DNA of 64,000 nucleotides from Bacteroidia bacterium. Its GTDB lineage: Bacteria; Bacteroidota; Bacteroidia; NS11-12g; UBA9320. Positions 47,263-62,301 of the stretch are shown here, in pieces. Every line of letters starts with the position of its first letter. Position 1 is the stretch's first letter. The notes under the pieces were generated by a model. That model had not been told where the DNA came from. It searched no databases and saw only the letters and a list, made by a program, of their open reading frames with translations. The DNA lies in assembly GCA_018402155.1 (NCBI GenBank), contig JAGYJG010000001.1, positions 1,066,198 to 1,130,197 of the forward strand. The letters are read 5' to 3'. The position numbers and the translations under genes are program-made.

Positions 47263-48288
47263 CTACGGAAAAAAGAAAAAACCTGCGATGATTCCTGCTT
47301 CAAATTGGTCTAAAATTTCTCCATCTTTATCGTATCTCCGCACCACACTTCTACTCACAAAGTCCTTGCTATCAGAAACGTAAACATCTCCGTTTTGGGG
47401 ATTTACAGCTATAGCAAACAGTGCTGCATCGGGCACCTCTTGCCAAAGCCTAGGTGCTTTATCCACGCCTATTTCAAATCTATATACTCCGTCTGCCAAG
47501 TAGTATAGTACGTTTTGTTGGGCGTCGTAAGTGAGTGAGGTGGGTACTCCCTGCACTTCTATTGCCTCTACAGATGGCGAGGCTCCATTGGTACTGACCT
47601 TAGTGATTTTTGCTGCTTCATTTACGCTTTCGTCACCACGGCATAGCACCCAAAGATCGCCATCGATATCTTGTACTATGCTCTCTGGTTGTTGTCCCAC
47701 TTTTAGGCTATCTTGCAGATTGTTAGTCGTTGTATTTACACTAAAAATTTTACCGGTTTCTGGAGCTGTATACCAAAATCTATTGTTTAATATCACTCCT
47801 TTTTCTGCCCAATGATTGGTTTTTATTTGTGAAATTATTGTACCAGTTTTTATATCCACTACCCAAATTATGTTAGCATACAAATCGGTCATATAGCCTG
47901 TTTCGCTATCTTTTTGGTAAAAGTATCGCGGCGAGACAAAGCCATCGTTTCTGGATATCTCTACAAAATTAGTATCTGTCACCACTAGCCTTCCAGAGTT
48001 ATTTATGATTAAATAATACGTTTGGTTTACCTTAGTTATACTCTGAAACACATTTCCCAAAGATGCTGAGTTTGCTTGTTTAAAAACCTCGTGATCTATC
48101 GATTTGGTTTGTGGGTAATAGACCGATAATGTACCCTCTCCCCAACCAAAATTTCCTTGATTGGCAATGAGCACTTGGGCGCCCTCTGCCAAAGCAGGCA
48201 CTTCCAAGTTCTCGTCTGGTGCACACGCATTCAGTAACAACCCAAAACAACCTAGCAATACTAATATACAACTATTTTTTGTACCCAT
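47263..48288 (-). CDS. BtuG-like DUF5074 beta-propeller lipoprotein
   Basis: 342 residues from the ATG at 48288. Signal peptide ends L-N-A-C (Cys22), then a seven-bladed propeller of the YncE/DUF5074 type (starts VLIANQGNFGWGEGTLSVYYP; ends GEILDQFEAGIIAGFFFFP). In Bacteroides the related surface lipoprotein BtuG captures vitamin B12 and hands it to BtuB, and this one lies in a cobalamin-riboswitch operon with a BtuB-like receptor, so a role as the cobalamin-capturing partner is strongly suggested. It is last of the four genes and overlaps the previous gene by 28 bases. Confidence 0.85.
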   Translation of the reverse strand: MGTKNSCILVLLGCFGLLLNACAPDENLEVPALAEGAQVLIANQGNFGWGEGTLSVYYPQTKSIDHEVFKQANSASLGNVFQSITKVNQTYYLIINNSGRLVVTDTNFVEISRNDGFVSPRYFYQKDSETGYMTDLYANIIWVVDIKTGTIISQIKTNHWAEKGVILNNRFWYTAPETGKIFSVNTTTNNLQDSLKVGQQPESIVQDIDGDLWVLCRGDESVNEAAKITKVSTNGASPSVEAIEVQGVPTSLTYDAQQNVLYYLADGVYRFEIGVDKAPRLWQEVPDAALFAIAVNPQNGDVYVSDSKDFVSRSVVRRYDKDGEILDQFEAGIIAGFFFFP

Positions 48289-49208
48289 TGTTGATTTTGT
48301 TGGAGAATGGTAATAATGTATGTGCCCGGAGTGTAAAAACTGCAAGGTTGCTTAGAAAAAGGATGTACTATTTTGCCTTGAATATCGCGACTACTGATTA
48401 TAGCATCGGCCCATTCGACTTTTAATTTCAGGACCTCACCACGTGCCAAAGAATTGGTTACCAAAGGATTTGCTTTACTAAAGGTTTCAGGTGTAAATAC
48501 AGAAAGCATTGCACCATTAACAATGGCCACAGCATCTAAGTCGAAACCTCCGCTAGCAAAAGGCGTAGGAAATGGATCATTAATAATACGTCCTTTGCTA
48601 TCTCTGCTGCCAAACGAATCATTTACACTACCCACTACATCTATCAGCCTAATATATTTAACCTCTTCTAGCCCTACTTCTTCTAGGTCAAATAAGGTAC
48701 CATATGGCGCTTGGTGTTTTCCGGCTAGGTTACTAATTTTCTGAGGATCAGTGTAGCCAAAATTGTCTGTTTGAAAACTAGTATCGCTCAAACTTTCACT
48801 GGCAAAACGAACAAAATCAGTTCCGTTTTGGCTTACTTCTACGTGGGCTAGCTCTAGATAGTAGCTAAAACCAACTTGAAATCCATTTTCGAATACGGCA
48901 AAGTCGTAGCCCTCATTGTTTACAATCGGCTGGTCAAAAGTTAAGGTAATAACTCCTCCATCTCCCAAGCTCACCACTTCTCCATCAAAAACTCCTAGTG
49001 CACTACTCTCTGTACCTGTGGTTGGTTTGCCGGCGGAAGTATCATTAATTTGGGCATATCCACGGATTATAGTTGCACCGGTGGCCCACGCTAAAATGCT
49101 TGCATCGTCTTTGTGCACAGACTTACTACCTGGCTCACCTCCTGCTGAATCAAATTGTGCACTACTCACTAGCGATGCTAAAAGTACGGATAACGTAATA
49201 ATCCTCAT
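48261..49208 (-). CDS. T9SS-type cell-surface protein of the cobalamin operon
   Basis: 315 residues: signal peptide ending SSAQ, then a beta-sandwich-like domain starting FDSAGGEPGSKSVHKDD and containing LSDTSFQTDNFG and DVVGSVNDSFGSRDSKG, common to Bacteroidota 'cell surface proteins' found near TonB receptors. The last 60 residues (from VLKLKVEWADAIISSRDIQG to G-T-Y-I-I-T-I-L-Q ... KIVVY) look like a T9SS type A sorting domain. Third gene of the operon; its ATG overlaps the DUF4465 stop (ATGA). Ligand probably cobalamin or a corrinoid by context, not shown. Confidence 0.75.
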   Translation of the reverse strand: MRIITLSVLLASLVSSAQFDSAGGEPGSKSVHKDDASILAWATGATIIRGYAQINDTSAGKPTTGTESSALGVFDGEVVSLGDGGVITLTFDQPIVNNEGYDFAVFENGFQVGFSYYLELAHVEVSQNGTDFVRFASESLSDTSFQTDNFGYTDPQKISNLAGKHQAPYGTLFDLEEVGLEEVKYIRLIDVVGSVNDSFGSRDSKGRIINDPFPTPFASGGFDLDAVAIVNGAMLSVFTPETFSKANPLVTNSLARGEVLKLKVEWADAIISSRDIQGKIVHPFSKQPCSFYTPGTYIITILQQNQQWVQKIVVY

Positions 49209-50851
49209 TGTTTTATAAATTTCTTGGTGGCTATTCCTTTTTCTGATTGTACGCGCACAAAGTAAATACCAGGCGTCAAATTATGCGTATTAACTGAGGT
49301 GTTTTTGGATGTAATTATGTTTTTGGCTTCAGCTATCTGCTTTCCATCTATGCCAAACAAGGTAACTGTCTGGATATTTGTTTTGGTACTGATATACAAT
49401 TCATTATGAACTGGATTTGGAAAAATAAGGATACCAGCATCCTCTTTAGGTACTGAAATGTTCCCCATAATTCGTATTCCAATATCCAGACAAAAAAATG
49501 CAGGTGTATTCATTCCCCACATTCCATTATCAGATGATTCAAGTTTGAAAACCATTTTATGAAAATCTATTGAAAAATCCTTTGCATCGTAAATTACTGC
49601 AAAATCTTTTAAAATGTAGTCGTCAGCTGAATTTTCAAATCTATAATCTGCAAGATATACCGTATCTTGCCTAATCAGTTCGTTTTTACTATTCATAAAA
49701 CGTATAAGAAGCCTAAAGTAATCCGGATCTGTGCCATCTTTACCACCAAACTTTTTACTGAACGAACTACCATTGAGCATATCTAAGTACGCGTATGTTG
49801 AATTATTTACAGAAAAAATAAGGTCTTCGTTGTTTGTAGAAAAGGTGTTAGAATCTTCACCTAGATATACTGTTCTGATCTCATTTTGCGCTCCTCCTGC
49901 CACATAAAAGTGTGACGATCCGTCTATGCAACTGAACTGATTTTCAAATCCAGGAGTGCTATCGTCTTGCATTGTACTATATGACCATCCGCTCCAACTT
50001 TCCCACATCGAATTAAATTTATTTGCAAAATGATATGGGCCGGCTTGTATACCTCCGGCCATGTCTCTTCCATTGTAAAAAGTATCCATCGGCATCGTAA
50101 AAAATGGAGAATTGTAATTTGAAAGTTCTACTGACCCATTGAAATCATCCATGCAAAAATATTTGGGCGTATTGAGCCCAAATGAGCCCATATCACTTCC
50201 TTGGTAATGAAAACTAATACTATCTACCACAGCATCCTTTGGTAAATCGTTATTGAATTCTACAAATGTCCAATCCTTGATTATATAATCTTTACTATTA
50301 TCTTGGAATCTATAATCGGCCAAGTAAAAAACGGTGGTATCTATCAATTTACCAGCCAAATAAGAGCGAATAATTAAGCGCAGAAAATCGGGATCGTTCC
50401 CGCTATCTCCGCCAAATTTTTTACTAAACCCGCTGCCATTTTTCATGTCATAATAGGCGTAAGTAGTGTTGTTGAAATAGGCTCCTCTTATGGGTGAAGC
50501 TACATCCAATTTGATATAAGCCCCATCACCTGTACTCACCATATAGTTAGGGGTATGGCTGACGCCATGTCCAGATATGGCACTGTACTGATTGGTAAAT
50601 CCCTGTGTCACATTATCGGTCATATTGCTAAGCGCCCAGCCACTCCAACTGCTCCATATGTCATTGTAAGTATTGGCAAAAAGCCGCCCATAGTGAGTAA
50701 ATCCTTTATGGCCTGATACTCCATTGTCAAAAGTATCAGTCTTGGCAAGCGGCAAATTATCAAAGGTGGAATATACCGTTTCGTGATTTAATTGTGCCAA
50801 AAGGCTCTGAGCTATTGTAATAGCTAAAAGAGTTAGTTTTTTTCTTTTCAT
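49205..50851 (-). CDS. double DUF4465 protein with T9SS sorting domain
   Basis: 548 residues from the ATG at 50851 (MKRKKLTLLA). After a signal peptide (SLLAQ) come two tandem copies of DUF4465: copy 1 begins KTDTFDNG (about residue 40) with IWSSWSGWALSNM, and copy 2 begins PMDTFYNG (about 250) with MWESWSGWSYSTM; each ends in a similar YLADYRFxxxxxDYI-lKD segment and a CMDD or CLDI Cys. The C-terminus (about 470-548) has ILIFPNPVHN and ends G-I-Y-F-V-R-V ... KKFIKQ, a T9SS sorting domain. Start overlaps the receptor stop (ATGA). Confidence 0.88.
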   Translation of the reverse strand: MKRKKLTLLAITIAQSLLAQLNHETVYSTFDNLPLAKTDTFDNGVSGHKGFTHYGRLFANTYNDIWSSWSGWALSNMTDNVTQGFTNQYSAISGHGVSHTPNYMVSTGDGAYIKLDVASPIRGAYFNNTTYAYYDMKNGSGFSKKFGGDSGNDPDFLRLIIRSYLAGKLIDTTVFYLADYRFQDNSKDYIIKDWTFVEFNNDLPKDAVVDSISFHYQGSDMGSFGLNTPKYFCMDDFNGSVELSNYNSPFFTMPMDTFYNGRDMAGGIQAGPYHFANKFNSMWESWSGWSYSTMQDDSTPGFENQFSCIDGSSHFYVAGGAQNEIRTVYLGEDSNTFSTNNEDLIFSVNNSTYAYLDMLNGSSFSKKFGGKDGTDPDYFRLLIRFMNSKNELIRQDTVYLADYRFENSADDYILKDFAVIYDAKDFSIDFHKMVFKLESSDNGMWGMNTPAFFCLDIGIRIMGNISVPKEDAGILIFPNPVHNELYISTKTNIQTVTLFGIDGKQIAEAKNIITSKNTSVNTHNLTPGIYFVRVQSEKGIATKKFIKQ

Positions 50852-52731
50852 GATTTTAAGGGTATGGTATAATTTAAATTTATTTTGATTACACGTCCAG
50901 GAATTGGGGTACGCGGCTGCGTGTAATAAGTTGTATTCGCAAGGTTCGCAGCAACAGCTCCTATACGCCATTTTTTAACTGTATAAAAACCGCCAGCTTC
51001 TAGCAACAAATAAGGTGATAGATACTCCCTATTGTCGCTAGCAGTAAAATTGTAACCGACATACTGCTGGTTGATGTATAAACTAAAGTGTTCGGTAATG
51101 ATAGTAAGTGTGCTGTTTTGAGTGATACTTGGCGTAAAAATAAGCTGCTTACCATTTCTGCTGTCTTCACGTACATACCTGTATGTAGCGCTCACCCCAT
51201 GCACGTTTGCTTGTGCTACAAGTTTCATTTTGCTGAATGTAGCAGTGTAAGAAGCGTCCCATACAGCGCCTAACACGTTTACATGTGCTAAATTTTCGGG
51301 TCTTATTTCGGGAAATCCCGACCATTGAATCCAGTTGGTATAGGTAGCAATATGCGGATTTATACTTAATTTAAATTTTTCAATTTCATATTTCAGTGTT
51401 ACGTCTGCCCGGTATCCTTGCTCTGGCTGTAAGTCTGCCCTACCACGTGCTGTACCCGGTTGATACCAAAATAGCTCATTAAGTACGGGCAGCCTAAATA
51501 CCTTACGAACACTAGCTATGACACTGTACTCTTTGGTGAGTGCCCTGTGCAAATTCAGAGATGCGTTGGTCACCCATCTATTATCGAAATAAATAGCAGT
51601 TTGATGATATGCTAATTTTCCATATTTAAATATTTTGGATACGTTCATTTGCGGCAGCCAGCGATTCCAAGTAGCATTTTCTTTTAGCGCCTCAGAGGTA
51701 TAGTTTGCATGATTATTAGCTATAGCCAAACTAAGAGAATACCCTTTTTTGAAATAGCCCGTACCATTGAGCGTAGTATTAGTATTAAAAACGGAACTAT
51801 TAGTAGCAATACCTCGAGGCACATCCTCAAAACCAATGTCTTCTTGCCATAGCTGATTGTCCAAGTTTAACACCCACCTAGCACCAATTTTCCACTGTAG
51901 AGTATTTACAGCCATAGCATTTTTGTCTGTTTGTTTAGCCTCTCCTACTTGACCCAAGGCAGGTGGTATTCCTCTATTAGCAGCTTGTAGGTAAACCGTA
52001 TTTTTCCACACCAACTTCGAATTTATGTCATAGCGTATTGTTTGTATAACACTCCATCTTTCAAAGTCTGTATTAGTCTGTAGGCTGTCCAAAAAACCAT
52101 ATCTACCCAAACCAATGAGATTGGGAGAAATGGCTGAAACTGCACTTATAGCGTAGTTTAAACGTTTTATCCGCTTGGCGTAATTGATATACGTATTTTT
52201 TTCGCCAAGAGTACTACCACCTATCGTAGCAGATAGGTTTGATGTAGCACTAGGGCTTTCTAGAACTATAGCAGCCCCAGCATTTACCATGCCGACGATA
52301 GGCTCAGTTTCGGTGTCAATAGTCAACTTACTAAAATGTGCAGCACCTAGTAAACTGAGGTCAAAACTTCCATTCATGCTGCTTTGAATATTGGCACCAT
52401 TGAGCACTATTGGAGTGTGCATAGAGCCTAGCCCCTTGTATGATAGTGTACTAAGCGAACCAGCTCCTCCACTACGTATAAAAATACCACTTTGCTTTTG
52501 AAGTAACTCAGAGAGATTCATAGCTGGATTGGCTTTTAATAGGGTTTCAGATACTAGTTGCCTGCTTGTCAATGTTTTTGGAGAAAATACTACCACAGAG
52601 TCCAAATGCTCTGGTAGTGCAAGAGGTGCAGCATTTGTATTAATAGGAAAATATGAGACACTATCATTCACCTGAGTATACCCCAGCATTTGGAGCAAGC
52701 AAATAGATATAGTAGCGAGCGCTATTTTCAA
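50848..52731 (-). CDS. btuB: TonB-dependent receptor, BtuB-like (cobalamin)
   Basis: About 627 residues from a TTG at 52731 that begins a signal peptide (K-I-A-L-A-T-I-S-I-C-L-L-Q-M-L-G-Y-T-Q). The plug domain holds VVVFSPKTLTSRQLV and LNGANIQSS; a C-terminal barrel ends PRTPIPGRVIKINLNYTI. This resembles BtuB and siderophore receptors. An ATG at 52986 is rejected: it is inside the riboswitch and would add 85 unlikely residues, and the terminator hairpin (52780-52831) lies between it and 52731. The riboswitch predicts repression by adenosylcobalamin. No TonB box was picked out. Confidence 0.85.
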   Translation of the reverse strand: MKIALATISICLLQMLGYTQVNDSVSYFPINTNAAPLALPEHLDSVVVFSPKTLTSRQLVSETLLKANPAMNLSELLQKQSGIFIRSGGAGSLSTLSYKGLGSMHTPIVLNGANIQSSMNGSFDLSLLGAAHFSKLTIDTETEPIVGMVNAGAAIVLESPSATSNLSATIGGSTLGEKNTYINYAKRIKRLNYAISAVSAISPNLIGLGRYGFLDSLQTNTDFERWSVIQTIRYDINSKLVWKNTVYLQAANRGIPPALGQVGEAKQTDKNAMAVNTLQWKIGARWVLNLDNQLWQEDIGFEDVPRGIATNSSVFNTNTTLNGTGYFKKGYSLSLAIANNHANYTSEALKENATWNRWLPQMNVSKIFKYGKLAYHQTAIYFDNRWVTNASLNLHRALTKEYSVIASVRKVFRLPVLNELFWYQPGTARGRADLQPEQGYRADVTLKYEIEKFKLSINPHIATYTNWIQWSGFPEIRPENLAHVNVLGAVWDASYTATFSKMKLVAQANVHGVSATYRYVREDSRNGKQLIFTPSITQNSTLTIITEHFSLYINQQYVGYNFTASDNREYLSPYLLLEAGGFYTVKKWRIGAVAANLANTTYYTQPRTPIPGRVIKINLNYTIPLKS

Positions 52732-52779
52732 TGCATTAGCATAATTAAAACTGCAACAAACAGAGCAGCATCGGAGTAT

Positions 52780-52831
52780 AAAAAGACAAGAAAAGCAGAC
52801 GCAAGCGTATGAATCTCCAATCGCTTTTCTT
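52780..52831 (-). terminator. terminator-like hairpin after the cobalamin riboswitch
   Basis: On the minus strand, arms AAGAAAAGC (52831-52823) and GCTTTTCTT (52796-52788) form a 9-bp stem followed by GTCTTTTT (52787-52780). This lies between the aptamer and the btuB TTG start (52731), so it could be the expression platform of a transcriptional riboswitch. The loop of 26 nt can form an inner hairpin (ACGC-AA-GCGT on the plus strand). Confidence 0.5.
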
Positions 52832-52854
52832 CCCGAAAGCATACTGAGTATAAT

Positions 52855-53022
52855 TGGCATAAGCAGGTCTTCTGACTTAGTTCCTAGTGTTGTAGTCCTT
52901 CCCACTCGCCGCAGCGAGCAGTGGATAGATGATAAACACACTATTAACAGAACAATACAGCTGCGGGTACAGTGGAGGTTTTTCACCTCTCTTCCCTTAA
53001 CTTTGCACGTGCAATAGTAGGC
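52855..53022 (-). ncRNA. cobalamin (B12) riboswitch
   Basis: Reading on the minus strand: GGGAAGAGAGGTGAAAAACC, then CCCGCAGCTG, then a central GGGAAGG segment, and finally AGAAGACCTGCTT. These are the conserved segments of the cobalamin aptamer in the right order and at normal spacing (about 170 nt). Boundaries are approximate because P1 is not resolved. It controls the four-gene operon downstream: with adenosylcobalamin bound, expression of the receptor genes is expected to fall. Confidence 0.95.
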
Positions 53023-53116
53023 AAAAAAAATATGACAAAATACAGTGTGGAAATATCGTCTATTTTATGATTATTTGCATTGCTATTTTAATTTAGTCTA
53101 AATAAATAAAAACATT

Positions 53117-53695
53117 ATGATACGAGAACGCATTAAAACAGAAACTGCTAAACATCACGAGGCTGTAGAAGCCGTAGGATACAGTGGCCAAATAATGAGT
53201 GGTAAACTGACTTTAGAAGAGTATAAAAAACTTATTATCACAAATCTGGCACTCAATAAAGCATTTGAAGCACAATGGAACAATCTTCCATTCGATGTAC
53301 CAAATTCCCTACTCCTAGATCAACGTCGAAAAACAGAAGCTTTAGAAAAAGATGCAACAATACTTGGTGTATCCATACCCGAAAAAAATAGTACTTCATT
53401 CCCAACTTCCTCATATGCTACATTTTTGGGTACGTTATATGTTTTTGAGGGTAGTACACTTGGAGGTGCCATTATTTACAAGCATCTTAAACAAAACACA
53501 AACCTTAAGCATATAAAAGATTTTTATTTTTATACTTGCTATGGTGAGAGCTTGGGCAGCTTGTGGAAAGTTTTTTTAGAGCACCTTACACAATTAGAAG
53601 ATGAAGAGCAAATAGATTCAGCAATATCTGCTGCGAAAGCCACTTTTGATCAAACAAAAGATGCTTTTTCCACAATAAATGAAAATGCTTTGTAA
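53117..53695 (+). CDS. heme oxygenase (biliverdin-producing)
   Basis: Cleaves heme to biliverdin, iron and CO. 192 residues, the usual length; proximal His in ETAKHHEAVE (about 14-15) and the distal helix LYVFEGSTLGGAIIYKHL, typical of bacterial heme oxygenases. It is divergent from the cobalamin operon. Iron recovery from heme or biliverdin supply to a phytochrome are both possible; no phytochrome or heme-uptake genes are adjacent. Confidence 0.92.
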   Translation: MIRERIKTETAKHHEAVEAVGYSGQIMSGKLTLEEYKKLIITNLALNKAFEAQWNNLPFDVPNSLLLDQRRKTEALEKDATILGVSIPEKNSTSFPTSSYATFLGTLYVFEGSTLGGAIIYKHLKQNTNLKHIKDFYFYTCYGESLGSLWKVFLEHLTQLEDEEQIDSAISAAKATFDQTKDAFSTINENAL

Positions 53696-53727
53696 TTTCT
53701 TTTTAGAAAAAGTACAAACTACTACAA

Positions 53728-53735
53728 TATATTTG
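53728..53735 (+). promoter_or_regulatory. -7 promoter box of efp
   Basis: Plus-strand TATATTTG, exact TAnnTTTG match, ends five bases before the ATG at 53741. The mRNA should be leaderless or have only a base or so before the ATG. Confidence 0.55.
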
Positions 53736-53740
53736 CGTCG

Positions 53741-54301
53741 ATGGCAACAACACAAGACTTATCAAGAGGTATGTTTCTACGATATAATGGCCAATTGTGC
53801 CAAGTAGTAGACTACCAGCATACCATGCCTGGTAAAGGCGGAGCTTTTTATCAAGTAAAAATGAAAAATGCAATCACCGGTAAATCTATTGAAAATAGAT
53901 TTAGAAGCGGCGAAACCATTGAGGATGTCCGCGTAGAACTTATAGAAATGCAATATTTATACAAAGATGGCAACAATTTAGTTCTCATGAATACAGAAAC
54001 CTATGAGCAAGTGGCTATACCCGAAACTATGATAGGAGACCAAATGAAATTTATCAAAGAAGAGATGATACTCAGCATATATTTTGATGAAGGAAATCCC
54101 ATAATGGCAGATGCCCCAAACCACGTTGTTTTAGAAATAACTTATAGTGAGCCAGGCGTAAAAGGAGACACCGCAAACAATCCTCTAAAACCAGCCACTT
54201 TAGAAACTGGGGCTATCGTGAATGTACCTCTTTTTGTAGACAGTGGCGAAAAAATAAAAGTAGATACACGCACCGGCGAATACGTAGAGCGAGTGCGTTA
54301 A
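53741..54301 (+). CDS. efp: translation elongation factor P
   Basis: Rescues ribosomes stalled on polyproline. 186 residues, full length, with domains: KOW-like N-terminal (DLSRGMFLRYNGQLCQVV), the loop bearing the tip residue Lys32 (MPGKGGAF), OB domain (LIEMQYLYKDGNNLVLMN) and C-terminal OB domain (GAIVNVPLFVDSGEKIKVDTRTGEYVERV). Gly-Lys-Gly-Gly at the tip resembles EF-Ps modified at Lys; modification here is not shown. Immediately follows heme oxygenase but has its own promoter box. Confidence 0.97.
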   Translation: MATTQDLSRGMFLRYNGQLCQVVDYQHTMPGKGGAFYQVKMKNAITGKSIENRFRSGETIEDVRVELIEMQYLYKDGNNLVLMNTETYEQVAIPETMIGDQMKFIKEEMILSIYFDEGNPIMADAPNHVVLEITYSEPGVKGDTANNPLKPATLETGAIVNVPLFVDSGEKIKVDTRTGEYVERVR

Positions 54302-54537
54302 AAAAATAACACAAGGAAAAAATAAAAAGGCATAAATTAATTATCTAGACGTGTTTTTTAACCATAAAACTGATTCTGGAATATACCTACAATAAATACG
54401 AGCGAAATAGTTCAATAATGTATGCTTATCTCAATATATGTGCACATTGCAAATCGATTTCAACTACTCCACTTAATATTTATTTAACATTAAAAAAAGC
54501 TTGAGGCAAACTGCACGTCGTCATTTTGCAACCATTA

Positions 54538-57345
54538 ATGAATAAATCAATCGCAATAATCGCCGCATTAATAGCCTTTTCTACTAATCTATTTGCTGGC
54601 ACCTTTACTGGAAAAGTTTTAGAAGAAGGCACAAACGAAGCGTTAATAGGCGCCACAGTGAGTTTAAAAAACACCACATTTTACGCCTTTGCTGGGCTTA
54701 ATGGAGATTTTAAAATAAAAGATGTACCTCCGGGCACCTATACAGTAGTGGTAACTTACCTTTCTTATAGTACCATAACGCAAACACTTAAAATAGGCAG
54801 TGCTGAAGTAAACAAAACGTTTTTTATGCAAAGTGAAACCACTAGCTTGGGCGATGTAAGGGTAGTAGCTGTGCGAAGAGGGGAAACAGAGGCTGGGGCG
54901 CGCACAGAAGAGCGCAAAGCAGATAACGTAATAAACATTATATCGGCAAAAGCCATAGAAATATCTCCAGATATAACAGTAGCCAACGTGGTGCAACGAG
55001 TATCTGGCCTCACAGTAGAGCGAAATTCTAATGGGGATGGGCAATATGCCATTGTAAGAGGAATGGATAAACGCTATAATTACACTCTTGTAAATGGCAT
55101 AAAAATACCTTCACCAGATAATGAAAACCGGTATGTGCCGCTTGATATTTTTCCATCTGACTTGCTCAGTAGATTAGTGGTAAGCAAATCTTTAACACCA
55201 GATATGGAAGGCGATGCAGTAGGTGGAGTGGTAGATATGAAATTAAAAGAAGCACCCAACAGCAGAGTTTTTAAAGTAAGCTTAGGCACGGGATACAATG
55301 AAGCTTTTTTTAACACCAGATACAATAAATTTAGTAGAAATACTATTTGGCGAACGCCACCACGAGAGCAGTTAGGTAAAATCATAACGGCGGAAGAATT
55401 GGATTACGACCACTTTGACTTAGAGCGAGTACAAGCATTACCAAATCTTTTTGCAAGTGCAGTTTTGGGCAATCGTTTTATGGATAATCGACTTGGTGTA
55501 ATTGTAGCGGGTAGTTATCAAAACTCTTTTCGTTCTTCGGAACGCACCGAGTTTGGGGTGTCAGAAAATAACAGAGGCCAAGAAATACCGCAGATTTCGC
55601 AAGTACAGGACCGAATATACTCGATACAACAAAATAGAAGTGGTGTATTTAATAAAATAGATTTTAGGCAAAATAACCGAAATCACTTTTTCTTAACCAC
55701 AGCCTACATGCGTATGCAAAACAACGAATCTCGGCTAGTAGAAATAGATGAATTGCGCGGCATTGTAAATCCAACATTAGAATACAACTCTAGAAATCAA
55801 GTAAACATACAGCAGGTACTCAATACTACACTGCAGGGGAAACACGAAATTTTCAAGCCGTTGAATGTAGATTGGTCATTGGTATACTCCTATGCACAGC
55901 AAGATATGCCAGACAACTCCATGATTCGCTTAGTTAAAAATTATGATACAGGAGAACCGCGTTGGATTATGGGAGAAAACTTTACACGTATATGGGAGGC
56001 AAATTCAGATCAGGACATTTCAGCATACTATAACATAACCTACAATACTGCCATCGCAGACCAAAGTATAGAGTTGAAATACGGTGGCTTACAGCGTATC
56101 AAAAACAGACAAAATTCATATGATTTATACTCATTCAAGCCTAGGCCAGGTATACAAGAGTATGATGTATTTAACTCGTCTTTAGCTGATATAACGTGGA
56201 GAACCACGGGAGGATCGGGTACCAGCACGCACGTACTAAACTACGAATCGTATGAAAACATTTTTGCCAACTACATGCAATTTAAATTCACGCGATGGAA
56301 TACGAATTTTATAGGGGGAGTGCGTGCAGAACACACACAGCAAGGCTTTGTGACACAAGACCTAAACTACCCAGAAGGAGAGCAAGTATATTGGTCATTT
56401 TTACCGAGCTTGCACATAAAATATTCGCCAAACACTAAAACCAACTGGAGAGGTTCTTATTTCAGATCTATTTCTAGACCAAGTTTTTTAGAAATTATAC
56501 CGTATAGAAGACCTTTTAGCGAGGAAATTTTTGCTAGAGCAGGAAACCCGAATATTAAGCATGCAGAAGCGCACAGTCTGGATGCACGTTATGAGTTTTT
56601 TCCAAAACCTACAGAACAACTATTAGTTGGCGCGTTTTACAAATTTATAAATAATCCCATAGAATATGCCGTAATACCAGGGAACACAGAACTCAACGAG
56701 CAAGATAGAGCAGCATTGATGCCAGTCAATTTTGAGAGTGCAAGTAACTATGGAGTAGAAATGGACTATACCAAGTTTTTTAACCAATTTGGTATTAAGG
56801 CGAATTACACTTTTACCCTGAGCACGATAGAGTCTATGAAAAGAACCTGGGGAAGAGTAACTGCAGAAAATATTAACCAAGTTTCAGATTTGCAAAAAGA
56901 AACAGACAATATAGGTATAGGTGACAGCACCTTCATATCTGTACCACAGCTTCGCCCACTACAAGGCCAATCTATGCACCTTGGCAACATATCTCTATTG
57001 TACAAAAACCAAAAAATGGGGCTAGACGCACAGCTTTCTATGGTATATACCGGTGAGCGTATCGCAATAGTTTCTGTAGGTTTAGATAATGACATTTGGC
57101 AAAAAGCATTTACCCAACTAGATTTTTCGGTAGACAAAACCTGGGGCAAAATAGACCAATTTACATTATTCTGTAAAATCAACAATATTCTAAATTCTCC
57201 ATTTGAAATGTACATCAAAAAACAACATCAGGAGGATTTTAGAATAAACGAAGAGATACAACCAAATGGTAATACCGAAACACGCATGCGCTATGACTTA
57301 TACAATAGAAACTATATGCTCGGAATAAGGTACAGCTTGAAATAA
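54538..57345 (+). CDS. TonB-dependent receptor with N-terminal carboxypeptidase-like domain
   Basis: 935 residues from the ATG at 54538. Signal peptide (NLFAG), a CarboxypepD_reg-like domain (about 20-100: GKVLEEGTNEALIGATVSLK, PPGTYTVVVTYLSY), plug domain (SAKAIEISPDITVANVVQRV, YAIVRGMDKRYNYTLVNG) and 22-strand barrel ending YNRNYMLGIRYSLK. SusC-type large receptors import glycans, peptides or other large ligands, but no SusD partner follows; the substrate is unknown. A TTG four codons upstream (54526) is inside a TCATTTTG box, so ATG 54538 is used. Confidence 0.9.
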   Translation: MNKSIAIIAALIAFSTNLFAGTFTGKVLEEGTNEALIGATVSLKNTTFYAFAGLNGDFKIKDVPPGTYTVVVTYLSYSTITQTLKIGSAEVNKTFFMQSETTSLGDVRVVAVRRGETEAGARTEERKADNVINIISAKAIEISPDITVANVVQRVSGLTVERNSNGDGQYAIVRGMDKRYNYTLVNGIKIPSPDNENRYVPLDIFPSDLLSRLVVSKSLTPDMEGDAVGGVVDMKLKEAPNSRVFKVSLGTGYNEAFFNTRYNKFSRNTIWRTPPREQLGKIITAEELDYDHFDLERVQALPNLFASAVLGNRFMDNRLGVIVAGSYQNSFRSSERTEFGVSENNRGQEIPQISQVQDRIYSIQQNRSGVFNKIDFRQNNRNHFFLTTAYMRMQNNESRLVEIDELRGIVNPTLEYNSRNQVNIQQVLNTTLQGKHEIFKPLNVDWSLVYSYAQQDMPDNSMIRLVKNYDTGEPRWIMGENFTRIWEANSDQDISAYYNITYNTAIADQSIELKYGGLQRIKNRQNSYDLYSFKPRPGIQEYDVFNSSLADITWRTTGGSGTSTHVLNYESYENIFANYMQFKFTRWNTNFIGGVRAEHTQQGFVTQDLNYPEGEQVYWSFLPSLHIKYSPNTKTNWRGSYFRSISRPSFLEIIPYRRPFSEEIFARAGNPNIKHAEAHSLDARYEFFPKPTEQLLVGAFYKFINNPIEYAVIPGNTELNEQDRAALMPVNFESASNYGVEMDYTKFFNQFGIKANYTFTLSTIESMKRTWGRVTAENINQVSDLQKETDNIGIGDSTFISVPQLRPLQGQSMHLGNISLLYKNQKMGLDAQLSMVYTGERIAIVSVGLDNDIWQKAFTQLDFSVDKTWGKIDQFTLFCKINNILNSPFEMYIKKQHQEDFRINEEIQPNGNTETRMRYDLYNRNYMLGIRYSLK

Positions 57346-57456
57346 CTGCATTAATATAAAATTAATAAAAAGACAACCTTAATTTAACTAATATAACTGA
57401 CATAAGTCCTTACTCTTGTAACATAAATAAGAACGATAATACTTAAAAATCACAAA

Positions 57457-58737
57457 ATGAAAAAAATTAATTTACTAAACATCTTATTCATTGCTTCCGC
57501 TTTTTTGACAGCCATGAATTTTACATCTTGTAAAGATGATGACACCGTTGAACCGGAAGTAGAACAAGGAGGCGGCGACTTGTCTGGCGAGGTTACTGGA
57601 ACTTTAAAAAAAGGGACTTATGTTATCAAGTCAACAATAACTGTTCCTGTAGGAGGTACATTAACCCTTGAGCCAGGAGTTATATTCGAATTTGATGGTG
57701 ATGGACTATCTCCAGCAACTAGTCCAGAAATAAATCTTCTTGGAAATCTAGTAGCTAAGGGAACTGCTGAAAATCCAATTTTGTTCACAGTACCCGCAGA
57801 CAGAAGAGATCCTAAAAATGCTTATGACGGTCTTTGGGGTGGAATACAAGGTTCTGCTACAACTGAGTTTTTAGTTTTGCAACACTGTATTGTAGAATAC
57901 TGTGGTGGACCAGCAGATGGTAACCGTCCAGATTTGTACGATGCAGGAGATGCTAGGTTTGCTATTCATTTCGGAAACCCTAATGGAACTATGATTTTTG
58001 ACCATTCTATTCTAAGACACACAGCAGACGACGGCCTTCGTCCTCAAGGTGGTGGAAAATTTGCAATAACCTACAGCCAGTTTTACAACATTGGTGAGAC
58101 AGGTGGAGAAGGAATTAACTTCAAAGATGGATCTGTAGGAGATGTATGTTATAACCTTTTTTATGGCGTAGCTACTAACGGAAGCAAGCCAGCAGGAAAA
58201 GGTGACGGCGTACCTCAAACAAATATCAATAACTACAACAACACTTTTATCAACTGTGGTTTCAGAAGAGTGCAGTCTGGTAGAGGTGGATCTATAAACT
58301 ACGAGGGCGGTGCTAAAGGAAATAGCTTTAACAACATAATAGTGAACTGTAGATTTGGCATAAGAATGAGAGGAGACAAATTGCCAGAAGTAGCCAATAC
58401 AAAATATGGCTACACCATGTATTACGCTACAGATGCTGACGACAAAGACAACTTTTTTCCTTCTACTGACGTAGATGGAGACGGAAACAGAGTAACTAGT
58501 GAGCAACCTGGTGATATTTTAAACCAAGATCCTCAATTTGTAAACTACGCTGTTTCTACAAGTAAATTAACTGCTATGCCTGCTAATGGAGCTAACTTTA
58601 AACTAAAAGCTTCATCTCCAGGTAAAGGAAAAGGTACTACCAATGTGACACCTGTGCACACTAGCTTAAGCGGCGGTGGGGTTACGGTAACCCTTCCTGC
58701 ACCTTCTGCGGATTTTGGAGCATACGGTGCTGAATAA
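57457..58737 (+). CDS. right-handed beta-helix lipoprotein
   Basis: 426 residues; signal peptide ending T-S-C (Cys26), followed by KDDDTVEPEVEQGGGD, then a parallel beta-helix with repeats such as GVIFEFDGDG, VEYCGGPADG, FDHSILRHTADDGLR and a NTFINCGFRRVQSGRGG segment. It resembles polysaccharide-binding or -cleaving helix proteins, but catalytic residues are not assigned. No T9SS sorting domain. It is 111 bases after the receptor and ends in a terminator at 58763-58795, so it may be an abundant surface partner of the receptor. Confidence 0.82.
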   Translation: MKKINLLNILFIASAFLTAMNFTSCKDDDTVEPEVEQGGGDLSGEVTGTLKKGTYVIKSTITVPVGGTLTLEPGVIFEFDGDGLSPATSPEINLLGNLVAKGTAENPILFTVPADRRDPKNAYDGLWGGIQGSATTEFLVLQHCIVEYCGGPADGNRPDLYDAGDARFAIHFGNPNGTMIFDHSILRHTADDGLRPQGGGKFAITYSQFYNIGETGGEGINFKDGSVGDVCYNLFYGVATNGSKPAGKGDGVPQTNINNYNNTFINCGFRRVQSGRGGSINYEGGAKGNSFNNIIVNCRFGIRMRGDKLPEVANTKYGYTMYYATDADDKDNFFPSTDVDGDGNRVTSEQPGDILNQDPQFVNYAVSTSKLTAMPANGANFKLKASSPGKGKGTTNVTPVHTSLSGGGVTVTLPAPSADFGAYGAE

Positions 58738-58762
58738 AAATTTATTTTAAATTGTATAATTT

Positions 58763-58795
58763 TAAGGCTCCATTGAAAAATGGGGCCTTATTTTT
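58763..58795 (+). terminator. rho-independent terminator with GAAA loop
   Basis: A 12-bp stem, TAAGGCTCCATT (58763-58774) with AATGGGGCCTTA (58779-58790), closed by a GAAA tetraloop and followed by TTTTT (58791-58795). One G-U pair. It ends the beta-helix transcript; any read-through feeds the propeller genes. Confidence 0.85.
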
Positions 58796-58815
58796 GTCAA
58801 AAATATAAGACATCC

Positions 58816-59775
58816 TTGAAACATAAACTCACACACCTTTGGCTATTTTGTATTATACTACTAGTATCTGCTTGCCAAGATGATGAAACTCCTCATGCAG
58901 AAACGGAAAATAACCAAACTTCTATCATATTTGAGTCTACGTATTCCAGATTTGACATTGTACAAAACGATGAATTCGAATGGAAAACATCAGATACCAT
59001 TGACTATAATTTGAGAGAAATCTCTGGAATAGTAAGTAGCAGAAAAAACAATAATTTGGTCTATGTACACGAAGACTCGGGAAATGGAGCGGTTGTTTTT
59101 GTATATACAAAAAATGGTATTTTCAAGGGAACACTTCGCCTAACTGGGGTAACTAATAGAGACTGGGAAGATATAGCCATAGGACCAGGTCCCATAGATG
59201 GGGAAACATATATCTATGTAGGCGATATAGGAGACAATGGCGCAATAAGAGCCTCTTGTAGGATATATAGATTTGTTGAGCCCATCTTTTCAGCCAATGA
59301 CTTGACCTCTACTTTCGCTAAAAACATAAGCGATTTTGATATAATAGACTATCAGTATCCAGATGGTGCTCGCGATGCTGAAGCACTTTTAATTGATCAA
59401 AAATCAAAGGATTTAATCCTAGTGAGTAAAAGGGACCCACTGGTACAGGTGTACTCCCTACCCTATCCACAAAAAATAGGCGAAATGAGTACAGCAACCT
59501 TTCACGGTAAACTACCACTAAAGAGAATTTTAGCTGGCGATATATCTGCAGACAATAAAGAGATTCTACTAAAAAATGATGGAACTATCTACCACTGGTT
59601 TACGGAGGGAGACAATATCGTGAAAACACTTTTTCACCAACAACCCACTGCCCTAGCATATATACCGGAGGAACAAGGAGAGGCCGTTGGATGGGATGAA
59701 AATGGCTATTTCACCATCAGCGAGTCTAGGTCTAGCGCCGCACCCGTGTTATATTATTACCAAAGAAAACCCTGA
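58816..59775 (+). CDS. beta-propeller lipoprotein
   Basis: 319 residues from the TTG at 58816 (MKHKLTHLWLF), with a signal peptide ending V-S-A-C (Cys20) and DDETPHAE. Repeating propeller-type strands include NNLVYVHEDSGNGAVVFVY, RDWEDIAIGPGPIDGETYIYVGDIGD and YPDGARDAEALLIDQKSKDLILVSKRD. The Asp/Glu-rich motifs could bind metal. The ATG at 58780 is rejected because it sits in the upstream terminator stem and removes the signal. Function unknown; it follows the receptor/beta-helix pair and precedes a DUF6929-like gene. Confidence 0.72.
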   Translation: MKHKLTHLWLFCIILLVSACQDDETPHAETENNQTSIIFESTYSRFDIVQNDEFEWKTSDTIDYNLREISGIVSSRKNNNLVYVHEDSGNGAVVFVYTKNGIFKGTLRLTGVTNRDWEDIAIGPGPIDGETYIYVGDIGDNGAIRASCRIYRFVEPIFSANDLTSTFAKNISDFDIIDYQYPDGARDAEALLIDQKSKDLILVSKRDPLVQVYSLPYPQKIGEMSTATFHGKLPLKRILAGDISADNKEILLKNDGTIYHWFTEGDNIVKTLFHQQPTALAYIPEEQGEAVGWDENGYFTISESRSSAAPVLYYYQRKP

Positions 59776-59804
59776 AATATACCAGCCACTCACCTCAAAT
59801 TATA

Positions 59805-60800
59805 ATGATAAAACTACAAAAAATTTTCAACGAGTATCGTCAAGAATTGCGTACAATAAAGCATTTTGTTAGTCTACTTATAGTTTCATCTACTTTTGCC
59901 GCTTGCCAAAGTACAGGCAAATCCGACGCTACACTTACCATACTAGATGTGCACCAATACAGCGAAATGCCAGGCGGCTCAGGTATTTTAAAAATTAACG
60001 ACTTATACTACGCCATAGGAGATAATTCTCCATTTTTATTTACACTCGATAGTCAATTTTCCATCACCAGTAAAACAGCCATAGCGGATACAAATGTGCT
60101 AAAAAACCACACCATACCCAAAACTCAAAAACTTGATTTTGAAGCTGTAACAAAAATAAATAACAATGAAATAATCATTTTCGGTTCAGGATCTAAATCG
60201 CCACAAAGAGATATTTTTATTCGTATTTTTTTGAAAGACAGCATACAACACGAGAGTTACAGCTTAGTAGATTTTTACACAGAACTAAAGTCGTTAACAA
60301 GTATGAAAAATGCAGAGCTGAACATAGAGGGTGTTGCTTTTTGGAACGGTAAGCTTTCCTTGTTTAACAGAACTAACAATCTAATTTTTACGTTAGAATA
60401 TAGTAATTTTTTGGCTTACTTAAACCATGAGCAAGCTTCTCCCACTATAGATATTACACACGTAGACTTACCAAAAATTAATGGAATGCCGTCGGGTTTT
60501 TCTGGTGCAGAAGTACTCGTTGATGAAAACCAAATAGTATTTACCTCATCTGTAGAAGCAGCAGACAATGCCTACAACGACGGTGAAATATTGGGAAGTT
60601 TTATAGGTTTTTTAGATATTAGTACAGGAAATATCAAACCTACTAAAGACATTTTCAGAATTCCTGAGTACAAAACTCCCTTAAAAGTGGAATCGGTAGC
60701 CTACCACGAAAAGGTAGACCATAAAACATCGAACTACGTGCTAATAGTAGACAATGACGATGATAAGTCGCTAATAGTAACACTAAGCGTATCCCGTTAA
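59805..60800 (+). CDS. DUF6929-like beta-propeller protein
   Basis: 331 residues from the ATG at 59805, or about 317 from a TTG at 59847, which would give a compact signal (M-R-T-I-K-H-F) ending A-A-C. The propeller strands (YAIGDNSPFLFTLDSQFS, LDFEAVTKINNNEIIIFGSG, NIEGVAFWNGKLSLFNRTNN) match DUF6929 proteins, compared with phytase-like propellers; the activity is unverified. It lies 29 bases after the previous lipoprotein, likely cotranscribed. Confidence 0.7.
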   Translation: MIKLQKIFNEYRQELRTIKHFVSLLIVSSTFAACQSTGKSDATLTILDVHQYSEMPGGSGILKINDLYYAIGDNSPFLFTLDSQFSITSKTAIADTNVLKNHTIPKTQKLDFEAVTKINNNEIIIFGSGSKSPQRDIFIRIFLKDSIQHESYSLVDFYTELKSLTSMKNAELNIEGVAFWNGKLSLFNRTNNLIFTLEYSNFLAYLNHEQASPTIDITHVDLPKINGMPSGFSGAEVLVDENQIVFTSSVEAADNAYNDGEILGSFIGFLDISTGNIKPTKDIFRIPEYKTPLKVESVAYHEKVDHKTSNYVLIVDNDDDKSLIVTLSVSR

Positions 60801-60972
60801 TTTATTTGGCTGTATAAAAATAGTCAATCTAGATTTATTTTTGAGGTAAGAGAGCTGTAAAAAGTGGTATGTGCTTATTAGAAAAAGACCAAGAGAAGGA
60901 AAATTCTCATCTTCCGTGGAGAAACTTAAGTAAATTTTTCTGAAAAGCAGTGTGCATTTTACTCACAAGCTT

Positions 60973-62301
60973 TCACAGCATTTCGTTAGCCAAATTGGCT
61001 AGCTCGCTACGCTCGCCTTTTTCTAGATTCACATGACAAAATAGTCTGTGGTTTTTCACCTTATCTATGAGATAAGACAATCCGTTGCTTTCAGCATCTA
61101 GGTACGGTGTATCTATTTGGTTTATATCACCCGTAAATACGATTTTAGTATTTTCGCCTGCACGGGTTACAATGGTCTTTATTTCATGCGGTGTAAGATT
61201 TTGAGCTTCGTCCACTATAAAAAACACATTACTGAGTGTTCGACCTCTAATATATGCTAGCGGTGCAATAGCAATTTTCTCTTGCTGCACCATATCATTT
61301 ATTCTTTTAAACTCTGTATCGGTCTCTTTATACTGACTTTTAATAAACTTCAAATTATCCCAAATAGGTTGCATATAAGGATCTATTTTGGCATTAGCAT
61401 CTCCAGGTAAAAAACCAATATCCTTATTGCTAAGTGATACAATAGGCCGGGTGATATATATTTGATGAAAACTACTGCGCTGCTCTAATGCTGCGGCTAC
61501 TGCCATTAGTGTTTTCCCTGTACCCGCTACACCGCGAAGTGTTATTAGTTTTATTTCAGGATCTAGCAGTGCATGCATAGCAAACGCCTGCTCTGCATTG
61601 CGTGGTTTTATTTTGTATACAGTTTGTTTTTCCACGCGCTCTACAACTTCCTCGGCAGAGTTATAAAAGCCTAAAGCAGATTTTCGACCACTGTTCATTA
61701 TCAGAAAATGATTGAACGGAAACTTCACGTCACTCACTAATGATGCAGGTATTTTTGTATCAACAAATAATTTATCTATGACCGCTACAGGCAAACTTTC
61801 TACCACAGTTTTACCGGTATACAATTTGTCTACATCCTTTATCTTTCCAGTGAGATAGTCTTCGGCCTGCAGCGTAAATGCCTTTGCTTTCACACGAAGG
61901 CAAATATCTTTAGACACTAAAATTACTTTATATTTTGGATACTCTTGCTGCAAAGACAAGGCTGCATTTATAATTTTATTATCGTTTTTGTAATCGTCAA
62001 AAGTATCCGCTGCATTATTTTTAAGATTATCTATTTCTTTGACTACCTTAATTCTGCCCTTGCTCTGTCCTCCTATTTTTACCCAATTGTCAAGCAAAGA
62101 ATCAGTTGAAACAGAATTTAAAAACCGAATAAAACTTCGGGCTTCGTAGTTTTTGGAATCACCTCCTTTTTTGAAGGTATCTAATTCTTCTAATACTTGT
62201 ATAGGCAATGCTACGTCATTGTCTTCGAAGTGATGGACAGATTGATGATCAAAGAGTATAACAGAGGTGTCTAATACAAATATTTTTTTTGCTTTTGGCA
62301 T
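60973..62301 (-). CDS. PhoH family PIN-domain ATPase
   Basis: 442 residues: N-terminal PIN RNase domain (FVLDTSVILFDHQ, aspartates in YKNDNKIINAA and LVSKD) and a C-terminal PhoH/RecD-like P-loop ATPase (TLRGVAGTGKTLMAVAAAL, FIVDEAQNLTPHE, FTGDINQID). PhoH2-type fusions are RNA helicase/nucleases, sometimes linked to stress and phosphate limitation. Encoded alone on the minus strand. Confidence 0.92.
   Translation of the reverse strand: MPKAKKIFVLDTSVILFDHQSVHHFEDNDVALPIQVLEELDTFKKGGDSKNYEARSFIRFLNSVSTDSLLDNWVKIGGQSKGRIKVVKEIDNLKNNAADTFDDYKNDNKIINAALSLQQEYPKYKVILVSKDICLRVKAKAFTLQAEDYLTGKIKDVDKLYTGKTVVESLPVAVIDKLFVDTKIPASLVSDVKFPFNHFLIMNSGRKSALGFYNSAEEVVERVEKQTVYKIKPRNAEQAFAMHALLDPEIKLITLRGVAGTGKTLMAVAAALEQRSSFHQIYITRPIVSLSNKDIGFLPGDANAKIDPYMQPIWDNLKFIKSQYKETDTEFKRINDMVQQEKIAIAPLAYIRGRTLSNVFFIVDEAQNLTPHEIKTIVTRAGENTKIVFTGDINQIDTPYLDAESNGLSYLIDKVKNHRLFCHVNLEKGERSELANLANEML

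Follow-up and report, generated by a model that had tools for sequence, protein, structure and literature searches.

Described systems and the locus

To our knowledge, phosphorus uptake across the outer membrane of Bacteroidota is a poorly known process. Among the closest described systems are the PUSIV and PUSIII loci of Flavobacterium johnsoniae, which place a TonB-dependent transporter (TBDT) without SusD beside a lipoprotein of pectin-lyase fold, FII and FI, respectively (PMC8115612). Upon phosphate depletion the TBDT (Fjoh_0545) and lipoprotein FII (Fjoh_0546) of the PUSIV/FII locus at the phoBR operon (Fjoh_0542–0546) rise by log2 values of 8.0 and 9.9, and both are repressed under nitrogen and iron limitation; FI, which is related to FII, is the most abundant exoprotein of this species, and the F-type lipoproteins, which were assigned no function in that work, belong to the exoproteins that Flavobacterium produces most abundantly when starved of phosphate (PMC8115612). 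FI–FIII are given as 31–36% identical to Caulobacter ElpS (Lidbury et al., PMC8115612), in turn described as a phosphate-starvation surface lipoprotein (CC0170) whose gene adjoins that of the TonB receptor CC0171, and whose secretion goes along with raised alkaline phosphatase activity (PMC2996285). The present analysis concerns a stretch of 64,000 nucleotides (the window; positions 1,066,198 to 1,130,197 of contig JAGYJG010000001.1, assembly GCA_018402155.1, of a Bacteroidia bacterium), in which a TonB-dependent receptor gene (54538..57345, + strand) is followed by the gene of a right-handed beta-helix lipoprotein of 426 residues (57457..58737, + strand). Judged from gene neighbourhoods, homology and the expression reported for a related pair, these two products probably form a SusD-less, TonB-driven phosphorus-scavenging system, standing as a sister branch beside pairs of the ElpS/F type.

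The window pair differs from FII/FI in representing another branch, in the phosphatase or propeller genes found downstream, and in having no phoBR beside it. With ElpS and CC0171 it would share the placement of a surface lipoprotein next to a TonB receptor and a tie to phosphate starvation, whereas ElpS, which has a type II secretion system beside it, is released (PMC2996285). In PusCD and SusCD, too, import is energised at the outer membrane and involves a lipoprotein partner on the surface, and PusCD is phosphate-linked (PMC8115612), but the window pair has no SusD, its receptor is not SusC and its partner is a beta-helix. Among the works listed on Pho boxes, Bacteroides PhoB, ElpS and PusC/PusD there was no description of this receptor and beta-helix branch, and a search for links between beta-helix proteins, TonB receptors and phosphorus found only unrelated work.

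A conserved receptor and lipoprotein core

Full-length relatives of the lipoprotein (E<1e-40) occur in the source genome and 11 others among 108 genomes of its order, and within the genus (19 genomes) in the source genome only. In all 11 order-level neighbourhoods the receptor gene lies directly upstream of the lipoprotein gene. A scan of species genomes with the lipoprotein alignment recovered 42 loci, mostly from metagenome-assembled genomes and with named strains that include Niastella, Mucilaginibacter, Taibaiella, Flavobacterium, Saccharicrinis and Flammeovirga, and a receptor 35–42% identical to that of the window is encoded directly upstream in every one of them; the two sets overlap, so that their counts are not independent. 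The conserved core is the receptor together with the beta-helix lipoprotein. A preliminary description of this DNA had proposed a nutrient-uptake unit of four consecutive genes, extending the pair by two propeller genes, and the listing of open reading frames (ORFs) in the window confirms all four, co-directional on the + strand. Compared across relatives, the gene order does not sustain a unit of four, relatives of the first propeller protein (propeller 1) being present downstream in 13 of the 42 loci and the DUF6929 gene adjoining the pair in the source genome only, while the receptor and beta-helix genes stay together throughout. Two of the loci (L060 and L066) carry two receptor–lipoprotein pairs each, and another, Bacteroidota-like pair (L085) lies on a contig labelled Rhodobacteraceae, which is probably mis-binned.

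The receptor starts at ATG 54538, in a frame opening at TTG 54526, and Pfam recognises in it the CarbopepD_reg_2 and Plug domains and a TonB barrel. In NCBIfam it comes closest to TIGR01782, TonB-Xanth-Caul (3e-78, 264 bits, below the curated cut-off of 310), and by this sequence measure it is a clear relative of that family, though under the family cut-off. SusC/RagA (TIGR04056) found no NCBIfam match in the receptor at E<=1, and the label ‘SusC-type’ given to it earlier is therefore wrong. Since the receptor is not SusC-type, the missing SusD is unsurprising; as had been noted from the sequence, the four-gene cluster contains none by ORF and Pfam check, and both SusD genes that the genome possesses are located beyond the window.

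Searches of Pfam, NCBIfam and PDB sequences assign the beta-helix lipoprotein to no family, and Foldseek with its model returned nothing at E<=0.001. The model, with a predicted local distance difference test (pLDDT) score of only 69, does align to solved right-handed beta-helices (VIA-align; informative of fold class only), with PL6 alginate lyase and AlgG epimerase best at Z 23.1, pectate lyase Pel9A at 21.9, and diverse members of this class, tailspikes and NosD included, scoring alike at Z 20–23. Together with a lipobox (FTSC, followed by KDDD), this upholds the earlier assignment as a beta-helix lipoprotein. Acidic residues directly following the cysteine, in this protein as in propeller 1, are reminiscent of the signals that direct Bacteroidota lipoproteins to the surface.

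Downstream phosphatases and a probable link to phosphate starvation

The genomic surroundings of the pair point towards phosphorus. A phosphatase-family gene lies on the same strand within 3 kb downstream of the pair in 24 of the 42 loci, encoding calcineurin-like proteins in 14 (two clusters), histidine phosphatase branch 2 proteins in five and purple acid phosphatases in five; in labelling neighbours, ORFs overlapped by longer ones were discarded, and an Exo_endo_phos-like cluster (E 0.0084, below cut-off) was left outside the phosphatase count. When only the 37 loci whose downstream sequence extends for 1.2 kb or more are considered, 23 have a phosphatase, 29 a phosphatase or a propeller-1 relative, and eight neither, the last comprising three with the weak Exo_endo_phos-like gene, four from Flammeovirga, and L078. 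Phosphatases also head the list of Pfam families among 63 ORFs in unbroken co-directional runs downstream of the pair (Metallophos 12, His_Phos_2 5, Pur_ac_phosph_N 4), compared with at most one each in 63 control ORFs drawn at random from 182 in the same loci, for which 25 of 134 families are listed, all those with two or more members among them, so that single control matches may be hidden. For Metallophos the enrichment corresponds to a Fisher p of 0.002 if the control count is taken as one. In one locus (L036) the receptor has as neighbour a sub-threshold match (E 3.8e-4) to the phosphate transporter family PHO4.

A second line of evidence comes from a paralogous lipoprotein–receptor pair of the source genome, arranged in reverse order (C1, ~444–449 kb; L033 8477–12703). 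The two receptors are ~24% identical, profile comparison of their families reaches 100% over 874 columns, and the lipoprotein families are matched by hhalign at 99.3% (E 2.6e-20, 285 columns). In Flavobacterium sp. 7A the paralogous pair is oriented divergently to PhoB-like and PhoR-like genes, further along from which are porin-like genes and pstS, a layout that matches the one given for Fjoh_0542–0546, and in another genome (G096) it is followed by the genes for polyphosphate kinase (ppk) and exopolyphosphatase (ppx). The paralogous pair is probably an FII-type system. In the source genome it lies downstream of a folP-looking gene, and relatives of it are present in many genomes of the genus. 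Among other phosphate markers, a PhoU profile has two matches in the source genome, both inside one 720-codon frame, and the neighbourhoods of PhoH genes read in three relatives of the family (L165–L167) contain no receptor.

Two YTTAAYA half-sites 11 bp apart are located 48–66 bp upstream of the receptor start (54472..54490, + strand). This direct repeat is the sole exact match in the source genome to a degenerate motif partly derived from that very site, and when up to one mismatch is allowed the genome yields 18 sites as opposed to 26 for a reversed-pattern control. Two relatives contain 8 and 11 exact sites, against 17 and 3 for the reversed control, and those standing out belong only to pstS (Flavobacterium sp. 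7A) and a metallophosphoesterase-like gene (Mucilaginibacter OK283, named from its opening residues alone). The pattern TTAAY-N6-TTAAY appears in 9 of 40 receptor upstream regions versus 5 of 158 control upstreams (p 2e-4, for a pattern picked after testing many). As a candidate Pho box the repeat is only suggestive.

The propeller proteins

An intrinsic terminator, already remarked upon in the preliminary description, separates the beta-helix gene from propeller 1 (58763..58790, + strand; 12-bp stem and T-rich tail, -19 kcal/mol, z -5.2). From it that description had expected the beta-helix protein to be the most abundant product of the cluster, a suggestion on which only the abundance of the related FI bears. 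Because ATG 58780 falls within this element, propeller 1 probably starts at TTG 58816 (58816..59775, + strand), which precedes a lipoprotein signal (VSAC, followed by QDDE). No family was found for it in Pfam, NCBIfam or PDB sequence searches, and its model (pLDDT 82.5) matches six-bladed propellers, the best being YjiK (3qqz, Z 20.8, root-mean-square deviation 3.0, 225 aligned residues). YjiK and the SdiA-regulated propellers are the closest in fold, yet identity is 14% and there is no Pfam match. Nine acidic residues (E68, D87, D116, E118, D119, E189, D242, E289, E303) are invariant in 11 sequences, and both the propeller fold and the acid-rich motifs ascribed to this protein from its sequence are thus borne out. 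The fold does not set a beta-propeller phytase apart from other propellers, the match to 3amr (Z 13.1) falling within their crowd; two propeller-1 relatives with a secretion tail have weak Phytase-like matches (0.011 and 0.029).

Propeller 1 is an optional partner of the receptor and lipoprotein pair. Its relatives downstream of the pair, accompanied by a phosphatase in seven of the 13 loci, include lipoproteins (~37% identical) and more distant forms (22–25%), several of which carry a type IX secretion tail. In one genome (G104; L155 7496–8500) a propeller-1 gene has neither receptor nor lipoprotein gene for company; its surroundings otherwise resemble those in G096, as though a loss of the pair had occurred.

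The fourth gene (59805..60800, + strand) encodes the second propeller, a lipoprotein that is a DUF6929 protein (Pfam PF22000, 2.1e-74, 250.7 bits against a cut-off of 27), as had been surmised. Its lipobox, FAAC, is followed by QSTGK, with no acidic residues after the cysteine.

Proposed function and competing explanations

The pair probably operates in the manner of the F-type pairs. When phosphate is limiting, the cell would make both proteins, the lipoprotein in excess; the acidic residues that follow the lipid-bearing cysteine of the lipoprotein may direct it to the outer surface. There the beta-helix would bind a phosphorylated substrate, from which partner phosphatases or phosphodiesterases, encoded just downstream in most relatives and here possibly represented by propeller 1 or by an unlinked enzyme, would release smaller phosphorus compounds for the receptor to carry into the periplasm. 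The cargo would most likely be organic phosphate esters or phosphorylated polymers. We infer not only this substrate class but also the direction of transport, the regulation of this copy, the part of propeller 1 as enzyme or metal-binding partner, and that of DUF6929 as bystander. Uptake of a phosphorus-containing substrate without SusD had been raised for the four genes together; neighbourhoods, homology and the published expression of a related pair support it well for the receptor and beta-helix, and not for the unit of four.

Several observations weigh against phosphorus scavenging. The source genome has no phosphatase adjoining the pair, and neither the Flammeovirga loci (L086–L089) nor L078 have a phosphatase or propeller-1 relative within 3 kb. 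Some members of the calcineurin cluster (L071, L072/L043, L081/L044) have no Pfam phosphatase match of their own, and the genome-wide motif scans of the source genome and two relatives show no general link to phosphate genes. The tie to FII consists of homology to the paralogous pair and of gene layout in another Flavobacterium, and in Caulobacter CC0171 was constitutive in reverse-transcription PCR (PMC2996285). As a separate observation, genes of the His_kinase and LytTR response-regulator types come after the pair in the Flammeovirga loci, in place of a phosphatase.

Of the competing explanations, glycan uptake would make the beta-helix a polysaccharide lyase, epimerase, hydrolase or glycan binder and the receptor an importer of oligosaccharide. 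The proteins to which the model aligns best (PL6, AlgG, Pel9A) are indeed carbohydrate-active, and Lidbury et al. raised plant-cell-wall binding or hydrolysis for FI–FIII (PMC8115612). However, so many kinds of right-handed beta-helix score equally well that the fold is undecisive, the receptor is not SusC, and no glycoside hydrolase, polysaccharide lyase or SusD appears where phosphatases lead, among the 25 Pfam families given for the 63 ORFs downstream of the pair (34 matched); glycan uptake is accordingly unlikely. Uptake of a metal, siderophore or cofactor, in which propeller 1 would be a ligand-capturing surface lipoprotein resembling BtuG and the receptor its transporter, is likewise improbable. 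BtuG is a beta-propeller surface lipoprotein, such propellers are known in Bacteroides as partners of TonB receptors, and the cobalamin system BtuBG resembles the window pair in joining a TonB receptor to a surface lipoprotein. The receptor gives a weak match to the TonB-hemin model (1.8e-7, well short of the cut-off), and a heme oxygenase-like gene beside EF-P (53117..53695), upstream of the receptor, suggested heme. Against this, the window propeller is optional where the lipoprotein is constant, its fold is YjiK-like, there is no cobalamin evidence, and no iron-transport family is among those listed downstream. Moreover, EF-P is followed by genes other than the receptor in 15 of 15 other genus genomes with the EF-P locus read (L210–L224; L225, a 43% identical match, was left out). 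The adjacency of receptor and EF-P is therefore specific to the source genome, where the cluster was inserted or rearranged, and the upstream heme oxygenase and EF-P are no evidence of function, for which reason the heme link was rejected.

A single co-transcribed system of four components, to which both propellers are integral, would fit the common strand and the gaps of 111 bp (receptor to lipoprotein), 78 bp (lipoprotein to TTG 58816 of propeller 1) and 29 bp (propeller 1 to DUF6929). The terminator that separates propeller 1 from the beta-helix gene speaks against it, as does the distribution of DUF6929: nine of 107 order-level genomes have it, no receptor, lipoprotein-family member or propeller 1 is near it in seven of the other eight (flanks were fetched for seven), and it is labelled as neighbour in none of the 42 pair loci. 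DUF6929 was consequently rejected as a conserved partner, and a four-component system is very improbable. Phosphorus scavenging by the receptor and beta-helix lipoprotein is the explanation we prefer.

Other features of the window

The base composition of the cluster is ordinary, and an Rfam scan of 53000–61500 gave no match. The heme oxygenase-like gene occupies the same EF-P-adjacent place in some genus genomes (L215, L218, L219). A further group of genes on the - strand (47263–52986) comprises a second TonB receptor-like gene in which only the plug is recognised, a DUF4465 protein with a type IX tail, an unmatched 315-residue protein and a DUF5074 propeller, an assembly that we take to resemble the cobalamin-uptake loci of Bacteroidota.

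Implications

The analysis removes both a wrong SusC-type label and a misleading four-gene unit. A broader proposal, which is possible and at this stage tentative, is that Bacteroidota own an alternative to SusCD of general occurrence. On a TonB-Xanth-Caul-like receptor, SusD would be replaced by a surface beta-helix lipoprotein, the cargo would consist of phosphorus compounds, and the substrate would be set by exchangeable modules encoded downstream (phosphatases of the calcineurin-like, purple acid or histidine type, or an acidic YjiK-like propeller serving as a surface phosphoesterase of a new kind). A widespread sister branch that swaps phosphatase types among its neighbours amounts to a natural experiment on the ligands of these lipoproteins and opens the question of their substrate to testing.

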